64,000 bases of DNA from Kangiella sp. (lineage in GTDB: Bacteria > Pseudomonadota > Gammaproteobacteria > Enterobacterales > Kangiellaceae): the NCBI GenBank assembly GCA_028284185.1, contig JANQSG010000017.1, forward strand, positions 1 through 64,000, given 5' to 3'. The first letter of the stretch is position 1; the number at the start of each line of letters is the position of its first letter. Below the pieces are notes generated by a model. That model ran no database searches. It was given only the letters and a program-made list of their open reading frames with translations, and was not told the DNA's origin. This document shows positions 11,568 to 34,790 of this stretch, one piece after another. Both the position numbers and the translations under genes were made by a program.

Positions 11568-12284
11568 TTAAGGATGAACCAAAGTACCTTCAGCCTGACC
11601 CGATACTACATTCTGCAAAGCACCCTTTTTGGTCATATTAAAGACTCGAAGGTATTTGTTATGGTCACGTGCTAAATGAAATGCAGTTAAATCCATTACT
11701 GCCAACTCTTTATCCAAAGCTTCTTTATAACTTAATTGGTCATATTTCATCGCATTAGGATCTTTGGCTGGATCGGCGGAGTAAACCCCATCAACCTTTG
11801 TTGCCTTTAAGATTAAATCAGCCTCAATCTCAATACCGCGCAAGCAAGCCGCCGTATCGGTTGTGAAGAAAGGATTACCCGTACCGGCACAGAAAATGAC
11901 CACCTTACCCTTTTCCAACGCATTAATAGCACCACGGCGTGAAAAACCCTCACAAACCCCATCAATGGGCATAGCCGATAAAACTTTAGTAGCAATATTA
12001 TTGCGCTCTAAAGAGTCTTGTAATGCCAGCGAATTCATCACTGTAGCCAACATTCCCATATGGTCGCCCGTCACCCGATTCATGCCCGCTTCTGACAATG
12101 CCTGACCACGATAAATATTGCCACCTCCAATCACCACACCAACTTGTACGCCCATTGCCGTGATTTCCTTAATCTCATCCGCCATCTGCTGCAAAATTAC
12201 CGGATCGATACCAAACGACTGCTCACCCTGTAAGGCTTCACCGCTAAGTTTTAACAGAATTCGTTGATAGGCAAGTTCAGGCAT
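11568..12284 (-). CDS. pyrH: UMP kinase PyrH
   Basis: PyrH phosphorylates UMP to UDP in pyrimidine nucleotide synthesis. It is a hexameric amino-acid-kinase-fold enzyme. The N-terminal [10 protein letters not shown] motif binds phosphate, [12 protein letters not shown] is the glycine-rich loop (about residues 52-63), and the [13 protein letters not shown] segment near residue 163 is typical of the family. Length (238) is normal. In relatives tsf lies directly upstream; here about 7.2 kb of accessory DNA separates them, so pyrH must have its own promoter or depend on read-through. An own promoter was not clearly identified. Confidence 0.97.
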
Positions 12285-12761
12285 AGTGACTCCTTATTGG
12301 AATTGATGATTATATCCGTCATTGCGAGGAATGGTAATGACGAAGCAATCTCTATCGAATTGGCATGGATTATAGATTGCTTCGCTAATGCTAGCAATCA
12401 CAAACTCATGAAACTCCTGCGAAAGCAAGAGTCTATTCAATGCCTAAGCCAATCGACGCCTTCTTACTATCATTGTGAAGAAGCTGGCGACGAAGTAATC
12501 GTACGTCGCCACGAAGTTCCAGTACAACCCAAATCTTATCCTCCGCATGGTACTTCTTACGCGTGTTGTACGTCACCAAAACTTAGACTTGCCGCTAATT
12601 TTGCTGAGTTCAGTCGATAATTTTCAACTTTTGTAGAAGATTGGTAAGACTTACAGCAAAGCATAAAACCAAATTGCTCATTACTTAAACAGTTTAGCTT
12701 TGAAAAATATCATTTAAGCTCTATCGGACATACGGACAGGACATCTCTTGACCCTCACAAT
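12285..12761. other. Repeat-filled intergenic region upstream of pyrH
   Basis: These 477 bases hold no convincing gene. The first part is a REP-like repeat (12318-12400). Next is a fragment at 12414-12433 (CTCCTGC...GAGTC) like one half of the repeat at 54742-54817. A decayed second REP piece (about 12470-12510) follows, with the hairpin GGCGACG...CGTCGCC. The open frame running through the repeats on the plus strand has no ribosome-binding site and is a by-product of the repeats. The last 140 bases are AT-rich with no visible signal. It forms the left edge of the accessory island. Confidence 0.7.
12318..12400. repeat. REP-like palindromic repeat, copy 2 (upstream of pyrH)
   Basis: It opens with GTCATTGCGAGG, as copy 1 does, and contains ACGAAGCAATCT facing AGATTGCTTCG as the inner inverted pair. 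The right outer arm (CTAGCAATCA) is degenerate. It lies 34 bases upstream of the pyrH start codon. Confidence 0.75.
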
Positions 12762-13205
12762 CTACTTAAGACTCAACAATAAATTCCTACATATAATATT
12801 CATTTCAATGCCACTTGAAAAGGTTATGGAATGTTTATAGTTACCTTCTAATACTTCTACTTCATGATAGCCTATATCACCAAACCCAAGAGGCCCAGGT
12901 AATCCTAAGCCTTTGTTAGCCCTTAATTCAAACAGACTAACGTCTTGATACTCCAGTTTGATATTAGACGGGCCTCTTTCTTCGTTTTGATTAAGCACCT
13001 TCAATATTAAATTATTCTCACTACTCATATAACGACTTTCGTAAAGCTCACCGTCATGCAAAAAAACTTCCTCATGAAGAGTTACAAATGAAGTAGGTAA
13101 TATATCTTTAATACTTTTATAATAGTCATTATATTTCTGTAAAGGCTTTGGATCGTACTCGTTACTTTGCGCCTGATTCCACCACTTTAAAGTCATATAT
13201 TTCAT
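12762..13205 (-). CDS. Hypothetical protein, candidate immunity protein of a displaced RHS tip
   Basis: A 147-residue soluble, acidic protein with no signal peptide or membrane segment. I do not recognise it securely. The start (KYMTLKWWN) and the LHDGELYES segment around residue 48 resemble small DUF4085-like or immunity-type proteins, but this is a weak impression. It has an AGGAAG ribosome-binding site before the ATG. Sixteen bases upstream ends a 43-codon open stretch without a start (13222-13353). This gene-after-tail arrangement is what is expected for an immunity gene behind a broken RHS tip. The role is inference. Confidence 0.6.
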   Translation of the reverse strand: MKYMTLKWWNQAQSNEYDPKPLQKYNDYYKSIKDILPTSFVTLHEEVFLHDGELYESRYMSSENNLILKVLNQNEERGPSNIKLEYQDVSLFELRANKGLGLPGPLGFGDIGYHEVEVLEGNYKHSITFSSGIEMNIICRNLLLSLK

Positions 13206-13221
13206 ATATTCTTCCTATTAT

Positions 13222-13353
13222 TTATGCTTGGCAATTACTTCCCCAATTAACTGTTCCCCCTAACTTTTCGAATTGAATACAGCTTTGAACATCACCTTGC
13301 AAACATCCCTCTCTTGCCGCGGCCTTTGCAAAAAATAAAGCATTTGTAGCAAA
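13222..13353 (-). pseudogene. Start-less 43-codon remnant, probable displaced RHS C-terminal tip
   Basis: On the minus strand a frame is open from 13353 to a TAA at 13222-13224, preceded by an in-frame TGA. The product is protein-like: FATNALFFAKAAAREGC at the start, then GDVQSCIQFEKLGG and a final NWGSNCQA, with three cysteines. There is no start codon or ribosome-binding site of its own. It ends 16 bases before the ATG of the 147-residue gene. Length, composition and position fit the last part of a polymorphic tip that has lost its RHS core. Homology to a known toxin was not recognised. Confidence 0.5.
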
Positions 13354-13488
13354 TCATTTGCCAAAGTTTAAACTCATATTAACGCTATATATAATCAAAT
13401 TGTTTTTGCACTTTTAACAAGCTTTATTTAAATAGATTGATTGCTAATTAAAATCTCAACAATATGAGTTGCGCTGAGGCGCTTTTGC

Positions 13489-13947
13489 TTAATCAATAAC
13501 TCCTAATTGTTGAGCTTTGTTTAGCCATACTTCACTTAAATCTTTATTTTGAACACAGCCAATACCGTAGTAATACATACGACCAACTTCATAAAATGCA
13601 TCAGCATCTCCATAAAGAGCTGCTTTAACATACATCTCAAATGCTTTATCAAGATTTTTTTCTTTTTCTAGCAATGTGGCATAATCAAAACATGCATCAG
13701 AAAAATTTTTTCCCGATGAAAACTTTAAAAGCTCTTCGGCTAGTTTCCTGTCTTGATCTACATGCTCGCCATGTAAATACCAAGTTGCAAGTGCATAAGC
13801 AGCCTGAGCTGAACCAAGCTCAATAGCTTGATTCAATTTATTAATGACATTACTTATATCCGGCCTTTCACCATCCATCATTTTCAATGCTTGATTATAC
13901 AGCTTTTCAGATTCTCCAAAATTGTTAATTTTGTTACTACTGTTCAT
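13489..13947 (-). CDS. SEL1-like repeat protein, candidate immunity protein
   Basis: A 152-residue cytoplasmic-type protein made of SEL1/TPR-like helical repeats. The clearest are SAQAAYALATWYLHGEHV (about residues 46-63) and DADAFYEVGRMYYYGIGC (about 113-130), with the A-x-Y-x-L-G-x-x-Y-x-x-G pattern. Its ATG overlaps the TGA of a start-less 55-codon remnant as ATGA, so it was translated as the second gene of a pair whose first gene is now broken. SEL1 repeats mediate protein binding. An immunity role toward a lost RHS tip is inferred from position only. Confidence 0.75.
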   Translation of the reverse strand: MNSSNKINNFGESEKLYNQALKMMDGERPDISNVINKLNQAIELGSAQAAYALATWYLHGEHVDQDRKLAEELLKFSSGKNFSDACFDYATLLEKEKNLDKAFEMYVKAALYGDADAFYEVGRMYYYGIGCVQNKDLSEVWLNKAQQLGVID

Positions 13948-14111
13948 TTTAATTCTCGCTCAGATGAATAAAAAAACAAGGCTATTGAATTAGGAGTACT
14001 TAATAATTTACTGAATCCTTTTGATATCAATTTTTTCCATACTTTTTTATTCTTAAGTTTTTTTGGATCTGTTCCATGACTTCCTATCCCGCCATTATTC
14101 GGATTGAAATT
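13944..14111 (-). pseudogene. Start-less 55-codon remnant overlapping the SEL1 gene, probable displaced RHS tip
   Basis: A minus-strand frame is open from 14111 (after an in-frame TAA at 14112-14114) to a TGA at 13944-13946. Its product reads NFNPNNGGIGSHGTDPKK, then a lysine-rich helix-like part, and ends SIALFFYSSERELK. The GSHGTDPKK piece has the look of an RHS or other polymorphic-toxin tip linker. There is no start codon. The TGA overlaps the ATG of the SEL1-like gene as ATGA, a junction typical of toxin/immunity pairs. It begins immediately at the end of the 155-residue gene, consistent with replacement of an older tip by the present one. Confidence 0.55.
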
Positions 14112-14562
14112 TTATATTAAAGTGTTCTAAAAAATTTTCTATTGACTCTTTTAAATAGCCTGAGTCTTTGTAATCATCCTCACTTATACTTAGCAGAATA
14201 TCTTTGGCAGTCTTGCTCTCTTTATTCTCTTGCAGAAGAAGCTCAACAAGTTCGATCTTACAGTCTATATCACCCAAATCGACTCCTTTTTGTAAAATCC
14301 TTTTTGCATTGCCTAAATCATTTTCTTTTATAAAATGTGATGCAAGATTACTAAAAGCAACAAATGATCCCGATTTAATAGATGCCCAATACCACTTTTT
14401 AGCTAACAGACTATTAGGTAAATAAGAATCATAAACCGCCCCAATATTATTCATAATATCGGGATCTTTTTTGAAAAGTAATGCAAATCGCCAAAAGGCT
14501 ACTGCTAAACGGTAATTCTTTCTATCGAAAAAATAATTCCCAATTTTAAACATTTTATCCAT
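14095..14562 (-). CDS. TPR/SEL1-like protein, candidate immunity protein for the RHS tip
   Basis: A 155-residue soluble protein of paired helices. Segments such as NYRLAVAFWRFALLF, KDPDIMNNIGAVYDS and AFSNLASHFIKENDLGNA follow the TPR/SEL1 pattern, with the regularity lost toward the C-terminus. The ATG at 14562 overlaps the end of the RHS gene by 8 bases, so the two are translated together. The gene directly behind a polymorphic tip is normally its immunity gene; that is the reason for the proposed role. No direct family match was recognised, and a helical-repeat adaptor is an alternative. Confidence 0.7.
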   Translation of the reverse strand: MDKMFKIGNYFFDRKNYRLAVAFWRFALLFKKDPDIMNNIGAVYDSYLPNSLLAKKWYWASIKSGSFVAFSNLASHFIKENDLGNAKRILQKGVDLGDIDCKIELVELLLQENKESKTAKDILLSISEDDYKDSGYLKESIENFLEHFNIKFQSE

Positions 14563-17500
14563 CCTGCATGCAATCTAAGAAACCCCATACTTCTTCATAC
14601 GTTTTTCCGGTATTGTCATCAAAGCCATCATTATCAGAGTCGCAAAATAATTCTGCACAAGCCATTTCAGAAGGCCAAAGAGCGCCAAGTACTACACCAA
14701 GCATTCTGCCTAAGTGGCTGGGTGAAACTGAGCCCCCCATTTTCTTTGGAAATCCTTTCGGACGAGGTTTCACAATCTTTTTCCCGGTTCTAGGATCTTT
14801 AAATATTACCTTGTTAGGATTGGTAGGGTGAGGCTTATAATGCTTAAACTGGTTATTTGTACCTGAAGCGCTTCTTGCAAAGTTCCTTTCACCTTTCCCT
14901 TTTCCTGATAGCCCAAGGGGATCGATGACACTAACAGGGTTGTTGCTTACATACGCAAAAATATTAAGACCACCAGCAATGCCTATTGGGTCAGATTGCA
15001 AATATCTTCCAATACTAGCATCATAATATCTAAATATATTATACCAAAAACCTGATTCAGTATCGTAGTACTGGCCTGGGAAGCCAATATTGAAACCATT
15101 TAAATTATTTTGCTGAACTACTCTATCAAAGGCCATATTCTTAGCTTTCCAAACTATGGACTGACTTGAGTTAGTTATTACTTCAGGTCTATCTAAGTGA
15201 TCATTATGTACATAATATAATTGATTGTTTTTAATTAAGCCGATAACTCTGCCCTCAAATCTGATGTAAAGAGATTCTATTGAACTAGAGCCACTTGTTG
15301 TTTCTGCTAATAATTTCCCTGAAAGATCGTAAATGAATTTTTTAACTCCCGATATGCCAACTTTCTTTGAAACTCTTTGATTAAACGCATTTGTTTTATA
15401 TGAAGTAACAACACCACTTTTTGTTATCGAAGTTAATTTATTCAGACCATTATAATTCAGAGACAAATTACTATTATCCGAAGATATCATAGATATAATA
15501 TTTCCACGACCATCATAAGTGAATGTTCTATTTAACCCACTTCTGTTTGCAGATACTAAACTATTATTAGAAGAGTTCGTAGTGTAATTTGTGGTATTAG
15601 TGTTCTGAGTATGGCTAGTTCTATTACCATTAGAATCGTAGTTGAAAGACTCATTTCTAAATGCTGAGTTTTGTGTTTTTAACCTCGATAAATTATCGTA
15701 AGAATAGTTTTGAGTAACGGTAGTATTTTTATTATTAGTAATTTTGATTATCTCATTTACCGTGTTATAACTAAAAGATAAATCTTGAATAGTACCTGCT
15801 TTAATACTTGATATTCTTCCATCTGCATCAACGCTTCGATTTGTCCATACTCCATTACCATAGCCAAACCCAGTTGCTGTACCAAATGGTAAGTAATCAG
15901 TGCTGCTAATTACTGTTTTCCACACTCCGTTTACATACGCTTCAATCTTATTAATCCTATCAGCAGAATCATAGGAGTACTTAACTTTATAACCACCTGG
16001 GTAGTTTGTTTGTAAAAGTCTTCCAAAAGAATCATAGCTAAACGACTGTGTAAAGTTACTGCCGTCAACATTACTAGTTAAATGTGTAACTTTACCCTGA
16101 TCATTGTATTGGTAAGTTGTAAAACCACTTATATCGTCTACTCGACACAACTTACCTATACCATGACTACAACTATCATATGTATAAGAAATATTGGATC
16201 CAGTTGTTGAAGTTGTTTTAATTCTTCCTATAGCATCGTAGGTAATAGAGACACTAGTTCCATCGTTCCTCGCTACATTAGTCAACTGTCCTGCTATATC
16301 GTATGTATAATTTGTGACCCCAGAATCAGGGCTATTAACACTAATTTTCTCACCAAAAGAATTATTTTTATAAGTGGTTATCTTACCGCCAGGGTCAGTA
16401 ACAGAAGACAGGTAACCATAATGATCGTAATTAAACGTGATAAATTTATTGTCAGGTCTGATTTCCTTAATTTTTCTACCTGCACTATCATATTGATATG
16501 TTGTTAAGCGATTAAGAGCATCTGTCATTGTTTTAACTCGACTATTCTTATCGTAACTATAAGTTAATTTTTGACCGTTATTTCCCGAACTAAAATGCAA
16601 ATAACCTAAGCTGTCATAGGTATCTGAGGTTGATACGTGAGTATCAACTGAAATTTCATCGACCCAAATTATTCCTCCTGGTTTTCTTGGCCCTCCAGTG
16701 TTCTGCGGAACACGCTTATGTATTTCTGTTGCGGTTAAAGTACCTGATAAATTATTTAAGTTATCATATAGATACTCTATATACTCATATTCAGCTTGAG
16801 TTCCTACCGCAAAGTTATTACCTCGAGTATCTGGTAGTCGCTGTTTCTTAAGCCTACCGAAGTTATCGTATAGATACTCGATATAGGAACCGCTACTAGA
16901 AATGATTTTACTGACTTCACTAAAGCGATTGTACTCTATTATCGTTGACTGTATGCCAGCATCGAGCAATTCATCAGTTTGTATCAAACGACCTCTATCA
17001 TCATACGTAAAGTTAGTACGAGTCCCATTTGGATCGATACTATACCCAACCAACCCTCTTGCATCATAATTCCCAAATAATGTTTGATGACCTAAACCAT
17101 TAACAATTTTGGAAATATTTCCCAAGCTATCGTAATAAGTAGTGATAGCATCACTACTACCAGCCAAAGGGCCATCAATTTTGGTAGAGGTTAATTTGGT
17201 CCCATTTAATGTATAAGTATAATTAGTCGTCCTCTGTTGATAGGGTAAACCATTGACCGCATATTGAATAATCGTCGAAGATTTCAGTCTACGTTTGGCG
17301 GCATGGCTTACGGCATAATAGGTATTTTCTGTAGAGCTTAGCTTTGTACTGCTACCGGCAGCACAGAAAGTTCCAGCAACGCAACTTGATGAAGCTGACG
17401 CGTAGAAATCTATCTTTGTAATTTGATTATCTGTATTTCTAAAATAATGATAAAGCTTATTATCTTTCGTCACACGAGATAAAATTTGCCCTTTTTCGTT

Positions 17501-18820
17501 ATAGGCTAACTTTTCGGACTTCCCTTCCCAATCTTTTTTCTCAATAGGATACCCGTCAGAATTATAAACCGTACTGGCGGTAGCTGCTATACAAGATGCT
17601 GAAGATGGTCTGTTAACGCTAACAAGCTTTACATTACCATTAATCTTTTGGTAGTTATAAATAGTTTCAGCGCCTTTAGCATTCTTTTCTTTAGTTTGAT
17701 TTTGACTATAAGTAAAGGTTGACTCATTAACTCCACTTTGGCGACCACTTCTAATAACTTTGCCTGCTGAATTGTATGAGTTAGTCGAAAATCGAATGTC
17801 GTTATACGAAACTCCAGTAATTTTCGTGGTTCTATTACTATCTTCATAATGGTATTTAGTAGAGCCAGTATTGTTCGGGAAATTAACAGTTTGAAGTCTA
17901 CTGCTGCTTAAGTAATTGTAATTATACGTCTTATTTCCTGGAACAATCACTTGAGAAACAACAGAGCCATTCCAGTACAGCTTCAAATATTTTCCATAAG
18001 GATCAGTTACTTTATCTAGCTTGCCATTAACGTAGGAGAAGGAGATTTTTTCACCATGCGCATTCACCTTTTCTACAATTTTCCCACGATTATCGCCAGA
18101 AGTGATTTGATATTTTTCATGGCCTCCATCACCAGTATATCGCGTCCAGCTACCATCAGAATTTTGGATAGCATAACTAATGGATTGGGATTTTCTATCT
18201 TCCCATCGGCTCCTTTCTGCAACCCAAAAATAAGTATATCCGTAGCCACCCAAAGTAAAGGTGACAGAGCTTATTTCTCCTTGATAGGGGTTACACTCTT
18301 TGTTAGGTGGGCAAGTAAAACGTGTGCCTTCGAAATACTTTCTTAAATATAAGTCACCTTCCAAATTTGATGACCAGCCATAACCAAAAATCGACGGCGC
18401 TCGGTTAGAGTCATACCTTCTGACTAAGGAAAGTGAGGAATTACCAAACGCTGGAATATCAACATGGTTAAAGTTTTTAGATCCAGAAGACAATAATACA
18501 GGCTCTTCAGAGGAAGGGTTCTCACAGTTAGCTTTAGAATTGTCATCATCCGATGTGGGCTCACCAAAATCAACATTCTCAGCCATTTCTGGCATTTCTT
18601 GGTAATACATCAAGGCATGAAACAGCCAATCCATATCAAGCAAAGTTACGTCTTTAATTCTCTGCCCTGTCACAGTAACAATATTGTCACTTTGCTCTGG
18701 TGCAGGAGCGGTGACAATAACTACACCGTCTACGTCATCAGCAAATACAATACTCGGGCTTATGGTTAGAATAGATAGGCATATTAATAATTTTAAGTAG
18801 TATAAGGGGGTTGTTTTCAT
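14555..18820 (-). CDS. RHS/YD-repeat protein with Sec signal and variable C-terminal tip
   Basis: A 1421-residue exported protein. Residues 1-28 form a Sec signal peptide ending near VFADD. A region around residues 118-160 (FGNSSLSLVRRYDSNR, FGYGWSSNLEG) is the usual lead-in of secreted RHS proteins. Dozens of YD repeats (Y-D-x-x-G-R/N-x) follow from about residue 230 to 1200. The RHS core is HNDHLDRPEVIT, the aromatic RYYDASIGRYLQSDPIG block and the closing DPLGL near residue 1304. Residues 1305-1421 are a distinct tip beginning with a basic, proline-rich part (FKHYKPHPTNPNKV, KDPRTGKKIVKPRP) and ending with an aspartate-rich segment and three cysteines. YD repeats form a shell that encloses a toxic tip. 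There are no T6SS genes nearby, and the signal peptide suggests Sec export. A related type is WapA-like contact toxins. The activity of the tip is unknown. Confidence 0.92.
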   Translation of the reverse strand: MKTTPLYYLKLLICLSILTISPSIVFADDVDGVVIVTAPAPEQSDNIVTVTGQRIKDVTLLDMDWLFHALMYYQEMPEMAENVDFGEPTSDDDNSKANCENPSSEEPVLLSSGSKNFNHVDIPAFGNSSLSLVRRYDSNRAPSIFGYGWSSNLEGDLYLRKYFEGTRFTCPPNKECNPYQGEISSVTFTLGGYGYTYFWVAERSRWEDRKSQSISYAIQNSDGSWTRYTGDGGHEKYQITSGDNRGKIVEKVNAHGEKISFSYVNGKLDKVTDPYGKYLKLYWNGSVVSQVIVPGNKTYNYNYLSSSRLQTVNFPNNTGSTKYHYEDSNRTTKITGVSYNDIRFSTNSYNSAGKVIRSGRQSGVNESTFTYSQNQTKEKNAKGAETIYNYQKINGNVKLVSVNRPSSASCIAATASTVYNSDGYPIEKKDWEGKSEKLAYNEKGQILSRVTKDNKLYHYFRNTDNQITKIDFYASASSSCVAGTFCAAGSSTKLSSTENTYYAVSHAAKRRLKSSTIIQYAVNGLPYQQRTTNYTYTLNGTKLTSTKIDGPLAGSSDAITTYYDSLGNISKIVNGLGHQTLFGNYDARGLVGYSIDPNGTRTNFTYDDRGRLIQTDELLDAGIQSTIIEYNRFSEVSKIISSSGSYIEYLYDNFGRLKKQRLPDTRGNNFAVGTQAEYEYIEYLYDNLNNLSGTLTATEIHKRVPQNTGGPRKPGGIIWVDEISVDTHVSTSDTYDSLGYLHFSSGNNGQKLTYSYDKNSRVKTMTDALNRLTTYQYDSAGRKIKEIRPDNKFITFNYDHYGYLSSVTDPGGKITTYKNNSFGEKISVNSPDSGVTNYTYDIAGQLTNVARNDGTSVSITYDAIGRIKTTSTTGSNISYTYDSCSHGIGKLCRVDDISGFTTYQYNDQGKVTHLTSNVDGSNFTQSFSYDSFGRLLQTNYPGGYKVKYSYDSADRINKIEAYVNGVWKTVISSTDYLPFGTATGFGYGNGVWTNRSVDADGRISSIKAGTIQDLSFSYNTVNEIIKITNNKNTTVTQNYSYDNLSRLKTQNSAFRNESFNYDSNGNRTSHTQNTNTTNYTTNSSNNSLVSANRSGLNRTFTYDGRGNIISMISSDNSNLSLNYNGLNKLTSITKSGVVTSYKTNAFNQRVSKKVGISGVKKFIYDLSGKLLAETTSGSSSIESLYIRFEGRVIGLIKNNQLYYVHNDHLDRPEVITNSSQSIVWKAKNMAFDRVVQQNNLNGFNIGFPGQYYDTESGFWYNIFRYYDASIGRYLQSDPIGIAGGLNIFAYVSNNPVSVIDPLGLSGKGKGERNFARSASGTNNQFKHYKPHPTNPNKVIFKDPRTGKKIVKPRPKGFPKKMGGSVSPSHLGRMLGVVLGALWPSEMACAELFCDSDNDGFDDNTGKTYEEVWGFLDCMQDG

Positions 18821-18868
18821 CCTTCAGTTTCCTTGATAATCATTAAATCTAATTTTTATTATCGAAGG

Positions 18869-18897
18869 TTTATACTTGATTTCTTTGAAATACACAA
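18869..18897 (-). promoter_or_regulatory. Possible sigma-70 promoter of the RHS gene
   Basis: On the minus strand TTGTGT (18892-18897) and TATAAA (18869-18874) are separated by 17 bases, 49 bases before the RHS start codon. The minus-35 box is weak (TTG matched only). An AAGGA ribosome-binding site lies 8 bases before the ATG at 18820. Confidence 0.45.
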
Positions 18898-18913
18898 TTA
18901 ATAAAATTAAAAA

Positions 18914-19245
18914 ATGCAAATTTGTATTGAGATAATTAGACATAAGCTTAATCGCCTTCCTCATAATATTAAAAAGCACTCTAGAACCAAGTTTCATGCT
19001 CATGTTAGTGACTTAGGAATGATACATACTTATATCAAGCCAAGAACCCCTAGACTTAACGGAAAAGTTGAAAGATCACACTTAACCGACCAAAGAGAGT
19101 TTTACCAACTAATCGATTATAACGATGACATAGACTTACGTAGAAAACTGGTTCAATGGGAAGATTATTATAACTTTATCAGACCACATTCAGCTCATTA
19201 TGGAAAACACCTTATGAAAAACTTAAGCAACGTATGTTAGGATAA
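18914..19245 (+). pseudogene. IS481-type transposase remnant, truncated and frameshifted
   Basis: Only the last third of a DDE integrase-core transposase is left. The segment KFHAHVSDLGMIHTYIKPRT, then LNGKVERSHLTDQREFYQL containing the catalytic glutamate (GKVER), and YYNFIRPHSA are typical of IS481/IS3-related enzymes. The frame breaks after HYGK: a one-base loss shifts it to a stop at 19238-19240. The neighbouring frame continues with PYEKLKQRMLG to a TAA at 19243-19245, which restores the family's usual ending. The first two aspartates and the helix-turn-helix part are missing. No terminal inverted repeats were found. Confidence 0.82.
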
Positions 19246-19340
19246 AAGCTAATGCCTACCATAGTCTGCAAAAAGACACTGGCACTTCTTTGGAGTTCAC
19301 CCTAGCACTATCCTGATAAACGTATGAGCAACTAATTGGG

Positions 19341-19366
19341 TGGATTTCCGCCTTCGCGGGAATGAC
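19341..19366. repeat. Short dispersed hairpin repeat (TGGATTTCCGCC...GCGGGAATGAC)
   Basis: The stem CCGC-CTTC-GCGG is within a sequence that recurs nearly unchanged at 54792-54817. This copy lies at the right edge of the accessory island, downstream of tsf. Confidence 0.7.
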
Positions 19367-19382
19367 GATAATAAGAGGTACA

Positions 19383-19419
19383 AAAAAGCTGCTGCTCTTA
19401 TCAAGAGCAGCAGCTTTTT
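19383..19419 (-). terminator. Rho-independent terminator of tsf
   Basis: Two 17-base arms (AAAAAGCTGCTGCTCTT and its exact complement) around a 3-base loop, with T tracts on both strands. It lies 46 bases past the tsf stop codon. It can stop transcription from both sides, so it isolates the rpsB-tsf unit from the RHS island. Confidence 0.92.
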
Positions 19420-19464
19420 ATCTTTGAAGATAATATCTTCAGAAAGAAGTGTTCAAAGAATCAA

Positions 19465-20331
19465 TTAAGCACCCATTTGAGCTGCTACTTCTGCAGCGAA
19501 GTCTTCTTCTTTCTTATCGATACCTTCACCTACCTCGAAGCGAGTGTAAGATACCACATCAGCACCAGCTGCTTTAACCAGCTTGCCAACAGTAGTTGAA
19601 GGATCTTTAACAAAGGCCTGACCTTCCAAAGTGATTTCGCCGATGAATTTATTGATACGACCACCAATCATTTTCTCAACGATGTTCTCTGGCTTACCAG
19701 CCATATCTGGTAATTCACGGATAATTGATTTTTCTTTCTCAATTACCGCAGGATCAACGTCGTCGGCTTTGTTGAACTGAGGGTTAGCAGCAGCAACGTG
19801 CATCGCAACGTCTTTTGCTAACTCTTCAGAACCGCCAGTCATAGAAACGATAACGCCGATACGGCCACCGTGAATGTAACCACCCAGGTTGTCACCTTCA
19901 ACTTTAGTTACACGACGAACCGTGATGTTTTCACCGATTTTAGCGACCAGGTTTGCACGCGCTGTTTCAACGGTTTCGCCAGAAGCCATTTCTGTAGCGT
20001 TTAAAGTATCAACATCGTTGATACCTTTTTCTAACGCTAAATCAGCAACTGCGTTGGCGAAACCCAGGAAGTTTTCGTCACGAGCAACGAAGTCAGTTTC
20101 TGAGTTGATTTCAACCAAAACACCAGCACCGTTTGCAGTACGAGATAAGATGATACCTTCAGCCGCAACACGACCCGCTTTCTTGGCAGCTTTAGCAGCG
20201 CCAGATTTACGCATATTATCGATTGCAACTTCGATGTCACCGTTAGTTTCAACTAGAGCTTTTTTACACTCCATCATGCCAGCGCCAGTGCGCTCACGTA
20301 ATTCTTTAACTAATGCAGCAGTAATTGCCAT
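19465..20331 (-). CDS. tsf: Elongation factor Ts
   Basis: EF-Ts exchanges GDP for GTP on EF-Tu. The 288-residue protein has the N-terminal UBA-like domain ([20 protein letters not shown]), the [10 protein letters not shown] motif at about residues 80-89 that contacts EF-Tu, and the two core subdomains ending in [23 protein letters not shown] ribosome-binding region precedes the ATG. It is the second gene of the rpsB-tsf unit, but with a 325-base repeat-filled gap after rpsB, and pyrH no longer follows it. Confidence 0.97.
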
Positions 20332-33164: not shown

Positions 33165-33353
33165 ATGTGGATGGCAATCGGTGTTACTTTCCTGATTTTT
33201 GCAGTTCTATATTCGGGGATCTATATGCTTAAACGCTCTGCCGATAAATTTAAAATTCCCGATAATGTTAAGGCTCAACCTTATAACAATGATGACTACG
33301 ATAATAGCGATAGCCATGAAAAAATTAACCACAAAAAAGAACAAAAATCTTAA
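33165..33353 (+). CDS. DUF2897-like small membrane protein
   Basis: A 62-residue protein: one membrane segment (WMAIGVTFLIFAVLYSGIYML), then a hydrophilic tail rich in K, D, N and E. The start and layout match DUF2897, whose function is unknown and which is often found near dapE. The AGGA ribosome-binding site lies inside the end of the previous gene, 7 bases from the ATG. Confidence 0.78.
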   Translation: MWMAIGVTFLIFAVLYSGIYMLKRSADKFKIPDNVKAQPYNNDDYDNSDSHEKINHKKEQKS

Positions 33354-33359
33354 TTGTTT

Positions 33360-34790
33360 ATGAAAGAAAAACTGGCGCGCCTTTCACTACTTCTGGGCCC
33401 TGTAATAGCAACTTTAATTTTGCTTCTGATGCTGCAATCCGGTTTCGACTGGCCTGCCAGCATCACTGCCGCCGTTATCACTTTATGTGCCATCTGGTGG
33501 ATTTTTGAACCTATTCCAATTCCTGCGACTTCATTAATCCCTATAGCCGCTTTCCCAATGTTCGGTGTATTAAATGGTGCTCAGGTTGCCAGCGCTTATG
33601 GCCATTGGTTGATTTTATTATTACTGGGCGGTTTTATTCTTTCTACCGCTCTGGAGCGAAGCGGCACCCATAAGCGTTTAGCCATGGGAATGATCAGATT
33701 GGTTGGTGGTCATGCAACAGAAACTAGCCAAAAACGCCTGATTTTAGGCTTTATGATTGCCAGTGCCGTACTAAGTATGTGGATTTCCAATACTGCCACT
33801 ACTTTAATGTTACTACCGGTAGCGATTGCCATTATTCAGTCCTTTGAAAAAAACCACGCCGATACTTTAACAAAGCCTTTTGCCACCGCTTTAATTCTTG
33901 GCTTGGGCTATGCCGCCAGTGTTGGTGGTATGGGAACCCCTATTGGTACCCCACCCAATACCTTGTTTATGAATGTTTATGCAGAGGCCACTGGGCAAGA
34001 ACTAGCCTTTACCGATTGGATGCAATGGGCCATACCCATTGTAGTATTGATGATCCCGCTAATGTGGTTATGGCTTACGCGGAAACTATCATCTGCAGCA
34101 AATAACTTCCAATTACCCGAACTTGGAGCCTGGCGCATTGAAGAAAAAAGAACTTTATTGGTTTTCCTGATCACTGCTTTTTTATGGGTATTCCGTAAAG
34201 AACCTTTTGGTGGCTGGAGCGGGGCTTTAAATTTAACTACCGTCAACGATGCTTCTGTCGCTTTATTGGCAGTAATTGCTATGTTCATTATCCCCAATGG
34301 TAAACAGGTCAATGGTAAAAAAGAACGCCTGCTGGACTGGCAAACGGCCAATAAAATCCCCTGGGGTGTGCTGTTATTATTTGCTGGTGGTATCACCATC
34401 GCCAAAGCTTTTACTATTACCGGACTCAGTCATTCGCTCGGTGAATCTCTTTCCTTCTTATCACAACTGCCACCCATATTAACCATTTTGGCAATCTGTT
34501 TGTTAGTTACTTTTTTAACCGAACTCACCAGCAATACCGCAACGGTAGCGTTATTAATGCCGGTGCTGGCAGCCGCCGGACATGCAGCTAATATTGATCC
34601 CGCCTTGTTTATGGTTCCCGCTGCTATCAGTGCCAGCTGCGCCTTTATGTTGCCCGTTGCTACTGGCCCTAATGCAGTAATATTTTCAAGTGAACGACTA
34701 ACCGTTGAACAAATGGTTCGTCATGGCTTTGTTTTGAATTTAATTGGGGTTCTGGTGGTTAGCAGTATGATTTATCTGTTAATGAGATAA
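33360..34790 (+). CDS. DASS-family sodium:dicarboxylate symporter
   Basis: A 476-residue transporter of the SLC13/DASS family. It has two inverted halves, each with a Ser-Asn-Thr motif: SNTATTLMLLP (about residues 145-155) and TSNTATVALLMPV (about residues 390-402), which bind sodium and substrate. About eleven membrane segments are visible. Substrates in this family are C4-dicarboxylates, citrate or sulfate, and the specificity here cannot be read. I use the ATG at 33360, although a TTG two codons earlier is possible, because no ribosome-binding site separates them well. Confidence 0.9.
   Translation: MKEKLARLSLLLGPVIATLILLLMLQSGFDWPASITAAVITLCAIWWIFEPIPIPATSLIPIAAFPMFGVLNGAQVASAYGHWLILLLLGGFILSTALERSGTHKRLAMGMIRLVGGHATETSQKRLILGFMIASAVLSMWISNTATTLMLLPVAIAIIQSFEKNHADTLTKPFATALILGLGYAASVGGMGTPIGTPPNTLFMNVYAEATGQELAFTDWMQWAIPIVVLMIPLMWLWLTRKLSSAANNFQLPELGAWRIEEKRTLLVFLITAFLWVFRKEPFGGWSGALNLTTVNDASVALLAVIAMFIIPNGKQVNGKKERLLDWQTANKIPWGVLLLFAGGITIAKAFTITGLSHSLGESLSFLSQLPPILTILAICLLVTFLTELTSNTATVALLMPVLAAAGHAANIDPALFMVPAAISASCAFMLPVATGPNAVIFSSERLTVEQMVRHGFVLNLIGVLVVSSMIYLLMR

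Follow-up and report, generated by a model that had tools for sequence, protein, structure and literature searches.

A start-less 55-codon frame behind an RHS toxin gene of Kangiella sp., a candidate stub of a displaced tip

The displacement of toxin tips is a well-known type of event, described in 2009. In the account of Jackson et al. (2009; PMC2935791), dissociated, or displaced, rhs tips follow a complete rhs gene and lie in GC-poor DNA, frequently lacking a proper start, and they arise through the insertion of a new tip; the end of the old tip and its partner are left behind the new pair, as is also described by Poole et al. (2011; PMC3150448). The orphan cdiA-CT/cdiI pairs of the latter authors consist of a toxin-end open reading frame that lacks initiation signals and, behind it, an immunity gene that has a start of its own, and some have no homology to the full gene. 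Strings of immunity genes, or polyimmunity loci, are described by Zhang et al. (2012; PMC3482391).

Here we describe an RHS locus in a 64,000-nucleotide stretch of Kangiella sp. DNA (hereafter the window; Table 1), with a 55-codon frame that ends at the start of a SEL1-like gene. The frame resembles the displaced tips of Jackson et al. (PMC2935791) in that it follows a complete rhs gene, lies in GC-poor sequence and lacks ATG and GTG, but the fragments presented there keep part of the rhs core as well as a recognizable tip, and the frame has neither: no RHS core piece lies ahead of the peptide, and no tip of a complete gene matches it. It also resembles the orphan cdiA-CT/cdiI pairs (PMC3150448), as a start-less open reading frame followed by a gene with its own start, although the orphans in that description usually keep a VENN motif or match other tips, and several were tested, none of which is true of our peptide. 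As in polyimmunity loci (PMC3482391), several unrelated partner-like genes run in one direction behind the toxin gene; in contrast to the loci described there, the genes are only three, with gaps of 147 and 283 nt, and two are each preceded by a start-less frame that is maybe toxin debris.

We put at about one half (0.5) the probability that the 55-codon frame is the 3' stub of a displaced RHS tip that once stood ahead of the SEL1-like gene. An RHS polymorphic-toxin locus would have been inserted between two genes that we take, from their translations, to be tsf and pyrH, and it would now carry the current tip and its TPR-like partner. The SEL1-like gene would be an older partner left behind when a cassette of the new tip and the TPR-like partner entered ahead of it, severing the old tip from its start. 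Such a stub is not expected to be produced as a toxin, and the SEL1-like gene, which should still be readable from its own ATG, is predicted to confer immunity against that old tip. What is observed is the gene order, the strands and overlaps, the RHS nature of the locus, the RHS tip next to the SEL1 relative in a congener, and a similar arrangement elsewhere in this genome; that the frame once coded, that it belonged to a tip, that the partners act as immunity proteins, and the sequence of events are inferred. Should the frame be a tip stub, this locus would be a small added case of C-terminal displacement with SEL1/TPR-type partners.

Table 1. Features of the RHS island and frames of like layout on other contigs of the same genome
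Feature	Position	Strand	Size	Remarks
tsf	19465-20331			flanks the RHS island on one side
RHS gene	14555..18820	minus	1421 aa	RHS repeats, Rhs-associated core, DPLGL boundary, then a 117-residue tip
Current RHS tip	14555..14908	minus		last 75 residues (GGSVSPSHLGRMLGV...LWPS...C...CDSDNDGFDD) related to the tip of the RHS gene in congener G014
TPR-like partner gene	14095..14562	minus	155 aa	8-nt overlap with the RHS stop
55-codon frame	13944..14111	minus	55 codons	peptide NFNPNNGGIGSHGTDPKK...ERELK, then stop; without ATG or GTG; stop overlaps the next ATG (ATGA); candidate displaced-tip stub or chance frame over a 147-nt spacer
SEL1-like gene	13489..13947	minus	152 aa	RHS-partner gene by position of its G014 relative
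Second start-less frame (P0002)	13222..13353	minus	43 codons	ends in AAREGCLQGDVQSCIQFEKLGGTVNWGSNCQA, then stop, 16 nt ahead of the DUF4085-like gene
DUF4085-like gene	12762..13205	minus	147 aa	DUF4085 E 1.2e-4, under the Pfam cut-off
pyrH	11568-12284			flanks the RHS island on the other side
Frame on contig C14	20975-22129	minus	384 codons	no ATG; Rhs-associated core over the cut-off (L061)
Frame on contig C17	24275-24616	minus	113 codons	no ATG; no match in the compared set (L062)
Frame on contig C19	24986-25240	minus	84 codons	ATG at codon 32 (L063)

The RHS island between tsf and pyrH

An earlier reading of the sequence alone (the sequence-only reading) had named an RHS locus, and family searches bear this out. 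The RHS gene matches RHS_repeat (7e-42), Rhs_assc_core (TIGR03696; 6.9e-23) and DUF6531 (4.6e-7) in Pfam and NCBIfam, the DPLGL boundary is visible in its translation ahead of the tip, and it has the makeup of RHS polymorphic toxin genes, that is, RHS/YD repeats and an Rhs-associated core followed by a variable tip. The gene behind the 55-codon frame was likewise correctly read as SEL1-like (Pfam Sel1, E 7e-11). Pfam TPR matches of the TPR-like gene are weak (E 0.06 to 0.08, under the cut-off), and its protein has no similarity to the SEL1-like protein by BLASTP (best E 4.8). No full-length relative of the TPR-like gene was found among 394 genomes of the order, 15 of which, including its own, match at E 0.01 (best other genome 1e-4, over a portion of the protein); the genome of the window itself has a second weak match (E 0.008), which lies within a 272-aa frame behind an RHS tip on contig C19. 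The DUF4085-like gene, which follows the other two in the same direction, was not found in any of the 19 congeners searched.

The partner genes and the spacer are AT-rich, with a GC content of 0.29 to 0.34 versus 0.40 in the whole window, and this fits displacement because the region behind rhs genes is GC-poor in the account of Jackson et al. (2009). Against displacement, the GC content of the current tip (0.42) exceeds that of the RHS core (0.36), the reverse of the Serratia example given by the same authors. A promoter and terminator scan of positions 12250-14700 returned 11 promoter-like sites, where shuffled sequence gives 9.0 (sd 2.6), and three terminator-like sites versus 1.1 in shuffles. 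One promoter-like site falls inside the 55-codon frame (minus strand, 14030-14003), no terminator-like site lies between the TPR-like and SEL1-like genes, and nothing firm follows from these counts.

The gap between tsf and pyrH is 48 to 70 nt in 12 of the 18 congener stretches around pyrH and 864 to 3339 nt in the other six; the longer gaps share some frames and differ in content. The site (12285-19464 in the window) therefore takes up DNA in the nearest species, in which pyrH is 87 to 96% identical, and the RHS island is one of its several fillings. Between tsf and the RHS gene lies an open reading frame of 108 aa (18914-19240, plus strand) with an integrase core (rve_3, E 6e-12), which by this match appears to be a fragment of an insertion element next to the RHS island. 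Just downstream of tsf is a perfect 17-nt inverted repeat with a 3-nt loop (19383-19419), perhaps the tsf terminator.

The SEL1-like gene and its relative in a congener

Among the 394 genomes of the order, one close relative of the SEL1-like gene was found, in the congener G014 (46 to 49% identical, E 9e-36). It begins 3 nt after the stop of an RHS tip, and that tip and the current tip of the window have their last 75 residues in common (53% identity when aligned); from the DPLGL boundary to this tail the two tips align poorly. A profile of the two SEL1-like proteins passes E 1e-14 in 27 of the 394 order-sampled genomes, only the two profile members scoring above 270 bits and the next 69. A profile of the two tip tails is found in just the same two genomes of the 394, the window's and G014, and in both the tail and the SEL1 gene are neighbours; both profiles were built from the two genomes that they recover. 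One tip tail thereby accompanies a SEL1 partner in one species, and in the other a TPR-like gene as well as a SEL1 gene.

Over 951 aligned residues, the RHS cores of the two genomes share 34% identity, and the G014 RHS locus lies away from the tsf-pyrH site of that genome (contig C5 versus C27). We note that the G014 core and tip do not form one uninterrupted frame, as there is one TAA inside, and this RHS copy may be broken; the adjacency of tip and SEL1 gene is independent of whether the frame is intact.

Because its only close relative found adjoins an RHS tip by 3 nt, the SEL1-like gene very probably represents an RHS partner of the immunity type. A scan of genome contigs with the SEL1 protein found no relative; such scans are seeded by short peptide patterns, matched exactly and taken from one sequence, which brings only close relatives within reach, and this one missed any genome like G014. 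SEL1-like matches on plasmids come from 14 records, all below 60% identity, and were set aside as a clue to partner function: the three contexts opened were longer SEL1/TPR proteins with no RHS gene annotated in the stretch.

The 55-codon frame and frames of like layout

The coordinates and length first given for the frame stand, as does the overlap of its TGA (13946-13944) with the ATGA that begins the SEL1-like gene, but the claim that it has no start is true for ATG and GTG only, since TTG occurs twice, at codons 28 and 45. The frame had also been placed directly behind the RHS/partner pair. The frame, on the minus strand, begins inside the partner, its first 17 nt lying over the 3' terminus of that TPR-like gene (14562-14095). 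The frame's place speaks for displacement, between two partner genes behind the RHS gene, on the same strand and with a stop/start overlap. As expected of a displaced rhs tip or orphan rhs-CT, the frame is open yet has no normal start, it comes directly after a complete rhs gene with its partner, and the gene that follows at once is from an RHS-partner family, by one example (G014).

It is quite possible, if somewhat short of probable, that the frame is fortuitous, the SEL1-like gene being a retained partner in a string of genes (TPR, SEL1, DUF4085-like) with 147 nt of spacer upstream of it; the immunity-gene strings in Zhang et al. (2012; PMC3482391) are cited in support. Of the 54 window genes selected by an ATG start and a length of at least 120 aa, 23 begin with ATGA, and one of the 22 others (33360-34790) likewise has exactly 55 open codons before its TGA, in a frame that by eye overlaps an apparent small gene in another frame (about 33166-33353). 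The start-less criterion is weak because this equal frame exists elsewhere in the window. A start-less frame of 55 codons at an ATGA junction is within chance, its length alone is no evidence for coding, and it is the partner gene, not the frame, that bears the evidence. The codon score does not set the frame apart from random open frames, 52% of which score as high, again as a fortuitous frame would have it; the RHS gene is also negative with the same codon table, so this measure of codon usage is blind here. A fortuitous frame would also agree with the finding of no homologue of the peptide, and with G014, where the SEL1 relative stands right behind a tip of the current type and no other tip is needed. 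Against chance, 55 open codons in that one given frame arise in only 1.5% of simulated stretches (60 of 4000) under a first-order Markov model of the region, and frames of like layout occur in the same genome.

At least three frames of the window's own genome (G000), on contigs C14, C17 and C19 and all on the minus strand, share the layout of the 55-codon frame (Table 1). The stop of each overlaps the ATG of the next gene by one base (TAATG), each follows an RHS frame running off the contig end and one gene (C14 and C17) or two (C19), and GTG or TTG codons are present inside all three. The C19 frame matches the tip end of the C14 frame (34% over 76, E 6e-8). These frames are probably displaced tips, longer examples than the 55-codon frame, and two of them (C14 and C19) are RHS by sequence; the C17 frame shows the layout and not tip identity, because it has no match in the compared set. 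Cut-off tips followed directly by another gene do occur in this genome, and the pieces can be short.

A more doubtful explanation is replacement of the partner without replacement of the tip. The current tip and the SEL1-like gene would then be the original pair, the TPR-like gene, as a second and unrelated partner, would have entered between them together with the spacer, one tip type would have two different partners, and the frame would be part of the entering piece or chance. This is suggested by the related tip and SEL1 gene 3 nt apart in G014, and by the rare tail and the SEL1 gene being neighbours in the same 2 of 394 genomes; as the tip that accompanies the SEL1 relative is of the same kind as the one now in the window, a lost tip is not needed. 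The same relative tempers the pattern of displacement seen in the sequence-only reading, which agrees with the position of the frame and with the like layout on three other contigs, but not with a SEL1 relative that accompanies a current-type tip rather than the peptide. Displacement of a tip and entry of a partner between the tip and the SEL1-like gene are not separable with the present sequences.

Relatives of the peptide and minor observations

The peptide had been taken for a polymorphic tip end. No RHS tip or other protein matched it beyond chance, and the claim fails by the standard that came with it, a match to an RHS-type tip; identification of the frame by sequence fails, and its identification by position is plausible. 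The 55-residue peptide has no match in Pfam, NCBIfam, PADLOC or PHROGs (the first two searched also at E up to 10), among plasmid and phage proteins, in plasmid DNA or in viral contigs, and the scan of genome contigs by exact short patterns, which reaches close relatives only, found no relative. Among 369 genomes sampled from the class it finds only itself at E 0.01, the 368 others being without a match. Its own genome gives one further match (E 0.047, with a stop inside), and when 60 relatives are searched along with it, with E 1 as the limit, 9 of these 61 genomes, its own included, give matches (best other E 0.014); these were judged to be chance from the alignments alone, which are short. 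The sole match among PDB sequences, ribosomal protein L29 (E 0.21), was also taken as chance.

RHS loci were compared in 20 fetched stretches, where the peptide has no match at E 0.01, nor at E 0.1 against frames of 90 aa or more. Its resemblance to the window's own tip (HGTDPKKL...KGFSK and HPTNPNKV...KGFPK) has a score reached by 6 of 500 and 29 of 2000 shuffles, and is not counted as evidence, as 2 of 288 other frames score equal or higher. With the G014 tip, 440 of 500 shuffles score as high. The best score of the peptide over the 288 RHS-locus frames (50) falls at the first residues of a partner: NKKVWKKLISKGFSKLL resembles the N-terminus of a small protein (L067) whose gene, in the genome G016, comes directly after an RHS tip. 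The frame could thus be a piece of a decayed partner gene, but only 17 residues align and 17 of 200 shuffled peptides reach a score of 50 over the same frames, and we consider this improbable. That the frame is translated, either by a frameshift near the end of the TPR-like protein that would extend the latter (the two frames overlap, both open, for 17 nt) or from an internal TTG (codon 28 or 45) coupled to the SEL1-like gene, is very improbable, with no known shift site by eye and no relative of the peptide or of the TPR-like protein showing such a fusion.

The second start-less frame (P0002) has no significant relative in the searched libraries and plasmids; its match to 30 Sinorhizobium plasmid records (E 2 over 18 residues) was taken as chance. 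Over the 288 frames its best resemblance is to the SEL1 protein of G014, at a score that 11 of 200 shuffles reach, and from this comparison P0002 may be a remnant of a SEL1-type gene or of a tip, or may have arisen by chance. A further resemblance, under the 55-codon frame itself, is noted as a curiosity and not counted as evidence: the plus strand at 13974-14004 matches the coding strand of the end of the SEL1 gene (13492-13522) at 23 of 31 positions, with NKAIELGV resembling NKAQQLGV, a score reached by 1 of 200 shuffles.
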